Below are positions 18,872-20,432 of a stretch of DNA of 64,000 nt, in pieces; positions within the stretch are counted from its first letter, which is position 1; each line of letters begins with the position of its first letter. A model generated the notes under the pieces. It saw only the letters and a program-made list of their open reading frames with translations, was not told the DNA's origin and searched no databases. The stretch is from assembly GCA_027307165.1 (NCBI GenBank), contig DAHUXM010000020.1:1-64000 (forward strand), in the 5' to 3' direction. The position numbers and the translations under genes were made by a program. The DNA is from Gemmatimonadota bacterium. GTDB taxonomy: Bacteria > Gemmatimonadota > Gemmatimonadetes > Gemmatimonadales > Gemmatimonadaceae.

Positions 18872-19162
18872 CTATCCCCCGCTTATGGCTGCGAGAATCG
18901 TTATCGTTGCCGGGTCGCGAATAGGCGTGGACAGGCCATCCGCGAAGCGACTGTTCTCGCCGTCGACGAATACATTGACGTGCGGGCGAAGAACGCCTTC
19001 TTCGGTCATCACGCGGTCGAGTACACCCGGATATCGTGACTCCAGTGCGCCAAGGGCGGCGCCGACGGAAGCGCACGATTGTTCGTGCGTATCTATGGTG
19101 ACGACGGCGCTTCCGCGCGAGTGCAGTCGGAGCGCCGAGGGGATCTCGATGGTGATCGCCAC
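18872..19162 (-). CDS. MoaD/ThiS-like ubiquitin-fold protein
   Basis: A 96-residue beta-grasp protein beginning at a GTG. It runs AITIEIPSALRLHSRG ... VGAALGALESRYPGVLDRVM ... RPHVNVFVDGENSRFADG and ends exactly in AAISGG. The terminal Gly-Gly is what E1-like enzymes adenylate in sulfur carriers (MoaD, ThiS) and in ubiquitin-like modifiers. No ThiF/MoeB-type E1 and no molybdopterin or thiamine genes are in this window. The start lies two bases after the stop of the BNR gene, so the two are translated as a unit. Role unknown: sulfur carrier or protein modifier. Confidence 0.85.
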   Translation of the reverse strand: MAITIEIPSALRLHSRGSAVVTIDTHEQSCASVGAALGALESRYPGVLDRVMTEEGVLRPHVNVFVDGENSRFADGLSTPIRDPATITILAAISGG

Positions 19163-19164
19163 GA

Positions 19165-20346
19165 TCAGCTCATCGGAGTGCCGACCACAGCTGCCTTCAC
19201 GCAGACGATCGATGGAAGTCCGCCGGCGATCTCGTTCCAGTTCTCACCATCGTTTGCCGAGCCGAAGAGCTTGCCGCTGCGTGTGCCGAAGTAGATACCA
19301 GCTGATGGGAGCGAGTCGGCGCTCAGTGCATCGCGGAGGATGGTTTCGTATGCGTCCTTCTGAGGGAGACCGTTCGCCAGCGGCTCCCACGATGCGCCGG
19401 CATCGGTCGTACGATAGACGCGCAGCTTTGCTTCGGGCACGCAACGAAACTGATCCGACTCGATGGGGACGATGTACACCGTGTCGGGATCGTGCGGGTG
19501 CATCTGCATGGAGAAGCCGAAGTCGGACGGAACGCCGTTCGCGATATCTGTCCACGAATCGCCCCAGTTGTCGCTGCGGTACAGGCCCCAGTGATTCTGC
19601 AGGAAGAGACGCTCCGGACGCGCAGGGTGATTCACGACCTTGTGAACGCACTGTCCGAACTTCGGGTACTTGTCGGGCATGAACTCAGCCCGGACACCGA
19701 CGTTTCGCGCCTGCCAGTTATTGCCGCCATCGTCGGTGCGGTAGAATCCGCCGCTGGAAACGGCGATCGCCATGCGTCTGGCATCGTTCGGGTCGACGAC
19801 TATGGTGTGGAGGCACAATCCGCCGCCACCGGGTTGCCACTTGGGGCGGTCGTCGTTGTCGTGCAGGCCGCGGACCATGTCCCACGTCTCGCCAGCGTCG
19901 CGCGACTCGAAGAGCGCAGCGGGCTCGACGCCGGCGTAGATGACGTCAGGTTGAGATGCACGTCCCGGCAGGATCTGCCAGACCTGAACGAGCGATACGC
20001 CCAGGCCGGCTGGAAACTTGATGTTCTGACGATCGGGGGCGGTCCAGCTCTGCCCGAAGTCGTCGCTCCAGCGCACGACACTGCCCCAGTGGAAGCTGCG
20101 TGTCCCAGCAAGAAGGCGGTGGCGGCCGTTGCGTTGATCGAGAGCGAGGGCGTACACGGATTCACCCGGGAAGTGCGGTCCGTCGATGCGCCAACTGGTG
20201 CGCGCGGCGTCTGACCAGATGAAGAATGCGCCTTTGACCGTGCCGACCATCAGCACTACTTCACCGCGAGCCTTCGCCTTCGTTTCAGATCTTGTTTCGG
20301 GATGCGTGTCAGCGCGAGATTCAGCGAGAGATTCAGCGAAAGTCAT
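19165..20346 (-). CDS. BNR-repeat (exo-alpha-sialidase-like) beta-propeller protein
   Basis: A 393-residue protein with at least five Asp-box blades, for example RWSDDFGQSWTAPD, ESRDAGETWDMV, RTDDGGNNWQARN, RSDNWGDSWTDIA and RTTDAGASWEPLA. The first 25 residues after the ATG are a hydrophilic, repetitive leader (AESLAESRADTHPETRSETK) rather than a signal peptide, so it appears cytosolic. Blades alone do not prove glycosidase activity, and such propellers may simply bind ligands. ATG 20346 has GGAG seven bases upstream. The following MoaD-like gene starts two bases after this stop. Confidence 0.88.
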   Translation of the reverse strand: MTFAESLAESRADTHPETRSETKAKARGEVVLMVGTVKGAFFIWSDAARTSWRIDGPHFPGESVYALALDQRNGRHRLLAGTRSFHWGSVVRWSDDFGQSWTAPDRQNIKFPAGLGVSLVQVWQILPGRASQPDVIYAGVEPAALFESRDAGETWDMVRGLHDNDDRPKWQPGGGGLCLHTIVVDPNDARRMAIAVSSGGFYRTDDGGNNWQARNVGVRAEFMPDKYPKFGQCVHKVVNHPARPERLFLQNHWGLYRSDNWGDSWTDIANGVPSDFGFSMQMHPHDPDTVYIVPIESDQFRCVPEAKLRVYRTTDAGASWEPLANGLPQKDAYETILRDALSADSLPSAGIYFGTRSGKLFGSANDGENWNEIAGGLPSIVCVKAAVVGTPMS

Positions 20347-20391
20347 GGTAGTCTCCGTGGCGATGTCGCAAATCAAACGAGGTTCCGGACT

Positions 20392-20432
20392 GTTCGTATA
20401 GTGTCACGACAGCGATATGACACTATACGAAC
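20392..20432. promoter_or_regulatory. Long inverted repeat between two minus-strand genes
   Basis: Perfect 15-bp arms, GTTCGTATAGTGTCA (20392-20406) and its complement (20418-20432), enclose 11 bases. The element lies 16 bases after the DUF1080-like stop and 46 bases before the BNR start. AT-rich arms and no T tract make it a poor factor-independent terminator in either direction; a regulator binding site or an mRNA 5' structure is equally possible. Confidence 0.55.

Follow-up and report, generated by a model that had tools for sequence, protein, structure and literature searches.

The window, by which we mean the whole stretch of 64,000 nucleotides of Gemmatimonadota DNA that was analyzed, carries on its minus strand a gene for a BNR/Asp-box propeller followed almost immediately by a gene for a small beta-grasp protein of the sulfur-carrier type. 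The features of the locus are as follows.

19165..20346, minus strand: BNR/Asp-box propeller gene (open reading frame), 393 aa, ATG start at 20346, with an alternative upstream TTG at 20376.
19163..19164, minus strand: 2-bp gap from the propeller stop to the carrier start (read from the sequence).
18872..19162, minus strand: CysO/MoaD-like beta-grasp sulfur-carrier gene (open reading frame), 96 aa, GTG start, product ending in SGG.
18872..18880, minus strand: codons for the C-terminal Gly-Gly of the carrier and its stop codon (read from the sequence).
19333..20241, minus strand: codons of the predicted, conserved top-face site of the propeller (T36, K38, W123, H180, S197, H235, Q250, H252 and R338), from conservation over 77 sequences and blade topology of the model.

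The minus-strand sequence at 19171-19160 reads ATG AGC TGA TC GTG, in which the TGA stop codon of the propeller gene is followed by two bases and then by the GTG start codon of the carrier gene. The initial annotation, made from the sequence alone, had placed the BNR stop and a MoaD-like GTG start two bases apart and had described a small protein ending exactly in GG; both claims held, the coordinates and the gap being exact and the 96-aa product ending in ...AAISGG-stop. We also agree with its description of the propeller as cytosolic-looking, as no signal peptide is evident in the propeller sequence. By Pfam-based assignment, the genes flanking the pair in the window encode an M1 peptidase and a protein without assignment. 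Between the stop of the upstream gene and the propeller start we observed a perfect 15-bp inverted repeat (GTTCGTATAGTGTCA; 20392-20432) with an 11-nt spacer. The repeat at the same place in genome G022 has two changes, both still G-U pairable, and genome G190 (locus L004) has another 15-bp stem with the same spacer and position as in the window. The retention of the stem by G-U pairing in the one and by a different sequence in the other suggests an RNA hairpin rather than an operator, and the repeat could be a hairpin that is terminator-like but lacks a U-run.

A ThiS/MoaD-type gene was found directly beside the propeller gene, on the same strand, in 102 of 120 distinct propeller loci (duplicates removed), with a median gap between the matched regions of the linked loci of 18 nt (range -13 to 187). 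Part of this 120-locus set was collected via the carrier and is thus biased, so a separate count was restricted to loci picked by the propeller alone; 70 of these 84 loci had an adjacent carrier (Pseudomonadota 12/14, Chloroflexota 25/30 and Gemmatimonadota 33/40). The pairing was present in five phyla, these three together with Actinomycetota (L058, L059) and Acidobacteria (L067); Cupriavidus metallidurans CH34 (L055) is among the named strains that carry it. The propeller gene precedes the carrier gene in 84 loci and follows it in 18, and the occurrence of both gene orders makes it likely that the linkage arose or was reshuffled on more than one occasion. The propeller itself was recovered in 103 of 200 Gemmatimonadota (E <= 1e-50), and in 54 of 151 Chloroflexota and 14 of 299 Pseudomonadota (E <= 1e-30). 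Distances in the propeller and carrier gene trees were correlated (r = 0.74 overall; 0.82 within Gemmatimonadota, 0.93 within Chloroflexota and 0.92 within Pseudomonadota), and none of 2000 shuffles, within-phylum shuffles included, gave a value as high. Inside one phylum, several propeller subfamilies each pair with their own carrier subfamily. Since linked genes are inherited together, the matched trees show that the two genes have traveled as a unit over the long term; they do not show contact between the proteins.

These results show that the pair is conserved far beyond chance. The initial annotation had proposed that the two genes may form a two-part system, had left a chance operon possible, and had stated that its proposal would be refuted if adjacency was rare outside close relatives or if the terminal GG was not conserved. 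Neither refutation was borne out: adjacency occurs in five phyla and in both gene orders, 101 of the 102 linked carriers retain the GG, and the chance operon is in practice refuted by the adjacency counts across phyla. A third conserved neighbor, for which it had suggested a search, was not found as a universal feature. When 6,649 ORFs from 50 loci were clustered, the pair and frames overlapping the pair came out, with only small groups besides, and an E1 gene is a neighbor in 11 loci only. No propeller-carrier fusion was found among the 120 distinct propeller loci. The pairing is visible, unexplained, in public annotation, where ‘MoaD/ThiS family protein’ and ‘exo-alpha-sialidase’ are adjacent. 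We found no description of the pair in the open-access literature searched, a set that excludes most subscription papers; neither of the beta-grasp surveys PMC1779556 and PMC2948915 refers to BNR or sialidase, and in PMC1949818 a propeller occurs just once, where the legend to a figure lists it as the symbol of a domain.

The carrier scored 35 bits against Pfam ThiS (cut-off 22.5) and 53.7 bits against NCBIfam SAMP1 (NF041918), the latter under the curated cut-off of 60. Its best solved relatives by profile were CysO of M. tuberculosis (3dwg; 81 bits) and the Amycolatopsis CysO-BexX complex. The carrier model (pLDDT 85, final residues disordered) matched CysO best in fold as well (3dwg; TM 0.82/0.85), so that the proteins ranked best by profile were also best by fold. 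On the basis of the profile and of the fold match of the model, we regard the carrier as CysO-like rather than as the MoaD of molybdopterin synthase. CysO is a proven sulfur carrier (PMC3227635), and it shares with the window carrier (3dwg, 3dwm; Amycolatopsis 4n6e with BexX) a free C-terminal GG and an E1-rhodanese activator (PMC3227635), the latter putative for the window carrier. The two differ in their partners, which for CysO are the cysteine synthase CysM and the peptidase Mec+, whereas the gene linked to the window carrier encodes the propeller; no CysM or Mec+ (JAMM) gene is linked to the window pair, and the E1 of the window genome is MoeB-type by its CxxC motifs. MoaD of the MoaD/MoaE molybdopterin synthase belongs to the same beta-grasp superfamily and has the GG end, but the fold score of the carrier against it was below the CysO score, and the neighborhood scan gave no MoaE match near the pair. 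The initial annotation had remarked that no molybdopterin gene was in view; a canonical moaA-moaE-moaD cluster is present elsewhere in the window genome, on a different contig. Haloferax SAMP1 resembles the carrier by its NCBIfam score and by fold, but the carrier is below the family cut-off, is bacterial and comes with no evidence of protein conjugation. The conserved GG was exactly C-terminal in 98 of the linked carriers and was followed by 4-11 further residues in three. The one propeller-linked carrier that has lost it, from Nonomuraea (L058, 5075-5386, plus strand), ends in ...VLPALA and could be a degenerate copy or one with a non-sulfur role.

The propeller has a Pfam Sortilin-Vps10/BNR match and is a seven-bladed Asp-box propeller. 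It matched PDB 3b7f (YP_299179.1 / Reut_B4987 of Ralstonia eutropha JMP134) over its full length (profile E 1.9e-118, 40% identity, fold TM 0.86/0.92); the two belong to the same propeller family with no essential difference, and the function of 3b7f is given as not known (PMC2716378). GH33 sialidases, GH74 xyloglucanases, Vps10/sortilin and Ycf48 share the Asp-box propeller architecture, but their likeness to the query is only remote (TM no higher than about 0.58). We mapped conservation over 77 sequences onto the blade topology of the propeller model (pLDDT 81.6, built on nine sequences). Outside the Asp-boxes, seven polar residues reached 95% conservation or higher (T36, H180, S197, H235, Q250, H252 and R338), and all seven map to loop 2-3 or near the starts of inner strands, that is, to the top face (P ~4e-4); K38 (92%) and W123 (97%) join them there. 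The assignment to the top face depends on topology taken from the model and on topological classes set by hand, with no distances behind it. It is through their top face that known Asp-box propellers function (PMC2716378). From the model, the near-invariant residues are predicted to make up a small, polar site rich in His on this face, as would be expected for ligand binding or catalysis.

The initial annotation had seen no E1 gene in view, a statement that holds for the window but not for the genome. A single ThiF-family E1 gene, MoeB-type with a C-terminal rhodanese domain, lies outside the window in the assembly, which spans 3.7 Mb and is 98% complete. In relatives, an E1 gene stands beside the pair in 11 distinct loci; propeller, carrier and E1 follow in a row in three (L006, L008/L026 and L027/L148), and the E1 is on the other side or strand of the pair in the remainder (L106, L131, L186, L189, L190, L191, L210 and L222). 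This is well above chance, as we estimate that fewer than one such locus would be expected with 1-3 E1 genes per ~3,500-gene genome, although several of the E1-adjacent loci come from related genera. Both CxxC motifs of the MoeB type are present in the E1s found; the rhodanese domain is present in those of the window genome, L006 and L189 and absent from that of L131. In mycobacteria a single E1-rhodanese, MoeZR, charges both MoaD and CysO (PMC3227635), providing a precedent for the one E1 of the window genome serving two carriers. The mycobacterial MoeB-type E1, on the other hand, charged MoaD and not CysO (PMC3227635), which argues against a direct CysO analogy, since the E1 of the window genome is itself MoeB-type. 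The action of this E1 on the window carrier is inferred. No JAMM (Prok-JAB) peptidase over the curated cut-off was found in the window genome or in most pair-bearing Gemmatimonadota, which favors sulfur transfer over a cycle of conjugation and deconjugation. We also observed, in the Gemmatimonadota locus L051 (1471-2994, plus strand), one frame that fuses a ThiS/MoaD-type carrier, an E1 and a C-terminal rhodanese-like stretch.

The propeller gene had no adjacent carrier in 18 of the 120 distinct loci, and the top-face site was almost unchanged there. A similar carrier is located next to an E1 elsewhere in six of the genomes with such loci (G006, G142, G200, G508, G531 and G615), that of G142 being a carrier-E1 fusion; in the Pseudomonadota genomes G467 and G304 no carrier of the pair's type was found at E 1e-4. 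The persistence of the same site without a carrier suggests that the core function of the site may not need one. The conserved site also suggests a core activity intrinsic to the propeller, with the carrier adding to it in most lineages. Residue 384 at first appeared to separate linked from unlinked propellers, and the separation was gone in the full set. One Gemmatimonadota subfamily without an adjacent carrier has propeller genes that overlap yqeC (L227, L229 and L230) or moeA next to fdhD (L228), or that have xdhC and a mocA-type gene nearby (L226 and L231); the moeA/yqeC/xdhC linkage was observed in no other subfamily. A carrier-less propeller gene in Rhodobacter sp. CZR27 (L054, 2616-6143) lies beside egtB and egtD of ergothioneine synthesis, on the opposite strand, another sulfur-metabolism neighbor of the propeller. 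The Chloroflexota genome G508 (L141, 3420-8641) has two carrier-less propeller copies ~5 kb apart or less.

The presence of the two genes side by side in at least five phyla makes it very probable that the sulfur carrier and the propeller have a joint role in a sulfur-transfer step, seemingly one not yet described; the gene pair is shown, and the use of sulfur is inferred. In the proposed mechanism, the MoeB-rhodanese E1 would adenylate the C-terminal GG of the carrier and turn the adenylated GG into a thiocarboxylate, the formation of which is inferred. The charged carrier would dock on the co-encoded cytosolic propeller, a contact that is likewise inferred. At the top-face site, with its three His, one each of Arg, Gln, Ser, Thr and Trp, and usually a Lys, the sulfur would be handed to a bound small molecule or cofactor; the residues have been mapped onto the topology, and the sulfur chemistry at the site is inferred. 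We consider this full mechanism, with an E1-charged carrier, a propeller partner and use of the sulfur at the top face, as likely to be right as wrong. Against it stand the 18 propeller loci with no adjacent carrier, the two genomes (G467 and G304) in which no carrier of this kind was recovered at E 1e-4, the MoeB type of the E1, the L058 carrier without GG and the lack of a natural fusion. The initial annotation had suggested that the propeller might be the target, the receptor or the reader of the carrier; the two-part system is supported, and which of these roles applies is not decided. The occurrence of the propeller without an adjacent carrier, with the top-face site kept, fits a partner enzyme or acceptor better than a passive target.

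The alternative that survives best, and which remains possible, is that the propeller binds, sulfurates or inserts Mo- or Se-type cofactors with sulfur given by the carrier, as a branch of Mo-cofactor tailoring. It is supported by the overlap or proximity of carrier-less Gemmatimonadota propeller genes to yqeC, moeA, xdhC, mocA-type and fdhD genes, and by the Moco-related nature of the carrier family and of the MoeB-type E1. Against it, in a set of 200 genomes the propeller was as frequent where xanthine-oxidase-family enzymes (Ald_Xan_dh_C) were present (85/166) as where they were absent (18/34), the window's own genus is without these enzymes, and only 1 of 78 carrier-linked loci in the neighborhood scan matched the Mo seeds used, through a distant FdhD (L136). 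Co-occurrence with MoaC was uninformative because MoaC is near universal in the phylum. Maturation of Mo-hydroxylases as a general role of the propeller was considered and is unsupported by the co-occurrence counts. The Mo link may be a specialization of the one carrier-less Gemmatimonadota subfamily, and it is the leading clue to the type of substrate of the propeller.

A second alternative, which we consider unlikely, is that the small protein is conjugated to lysines in the manner of SAMP or ubiquitin, with the propeller as substrate adaptor, receptor or main target. The likeness of the carrier to SAMP1 in sequence and fold and the presence of an E1 speak for it, and propellers often serve as protein-binding adaptors. 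Against it are the lack of a JAMM deconjugase over the cut-off in the window genome and most pair-bearing Gemmatimonadota, the small, polar and His-rich character of the near-invariant site, as for a ligand or catalysis, and the closest relative of the carrier, which is CysO and not SAMP1. It is very unlikely that the annotation of the propeller as glycoside hydrolase or sialidase is right and that the carrier is an unrelated operon partner. Public records label the propeller exo-alpha-sialidase or glycosyl hydrolase, and there is the remote fold likeness to GH74 xyloglucanases. However, R338 is the sole invariant Arg, leaving no sialidase Arg triad, no Asp or Glu is invariant outside the Asp-boxes, so that the hydrolase acids are not conserved, and there is no evident signal peptide. 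We rejected a GH33 exo-alpha-sialidase identity on the Arg triad and the acids, and the unrelated-neighbor part of this reading is ruled out by adjacency in five phyla and the matched trees. Finally, an operon that arose by chance, or is merely ancestral, and whose genes share no function is all but excluded, for although co-inheritance of genes in one operon would suffice for the matched trees, it is opposed by the five phyla, the two gene orders, the short gaps and the propeller subfamilies that each have their own carrier subfamily.

Returning to the proposed sulfur-transfer role, a bolder reading is that the pair belongs to an undescribed, widespread pathway that makes a sulfur-containing small molecule or cofactor, the E1-charged carrier having an Asp-box propeller as its catalytic partner; we hold this more likely to be wrong than right. 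Sulfur-carrier systems are defined by the partner protein, as with MoaE, ThiG, CysM and BexX. A sulfur carrier with a dedicated partner is a known arrangement, and what would be new is the fold of the partner, as the Asp-box propeller is, to our knowledge, not known in that role. A partner of new fold kept in five phyla points to an unrecognized sulfur-dependent product, and among the genomes sampled the propeller occurs in roughly one in two Gemmatimonadota and one in three Chloroflexota. The proposal also offers a hypothesis of function for the orphan structure 3b7f and for proteins now labeled as sialidases.
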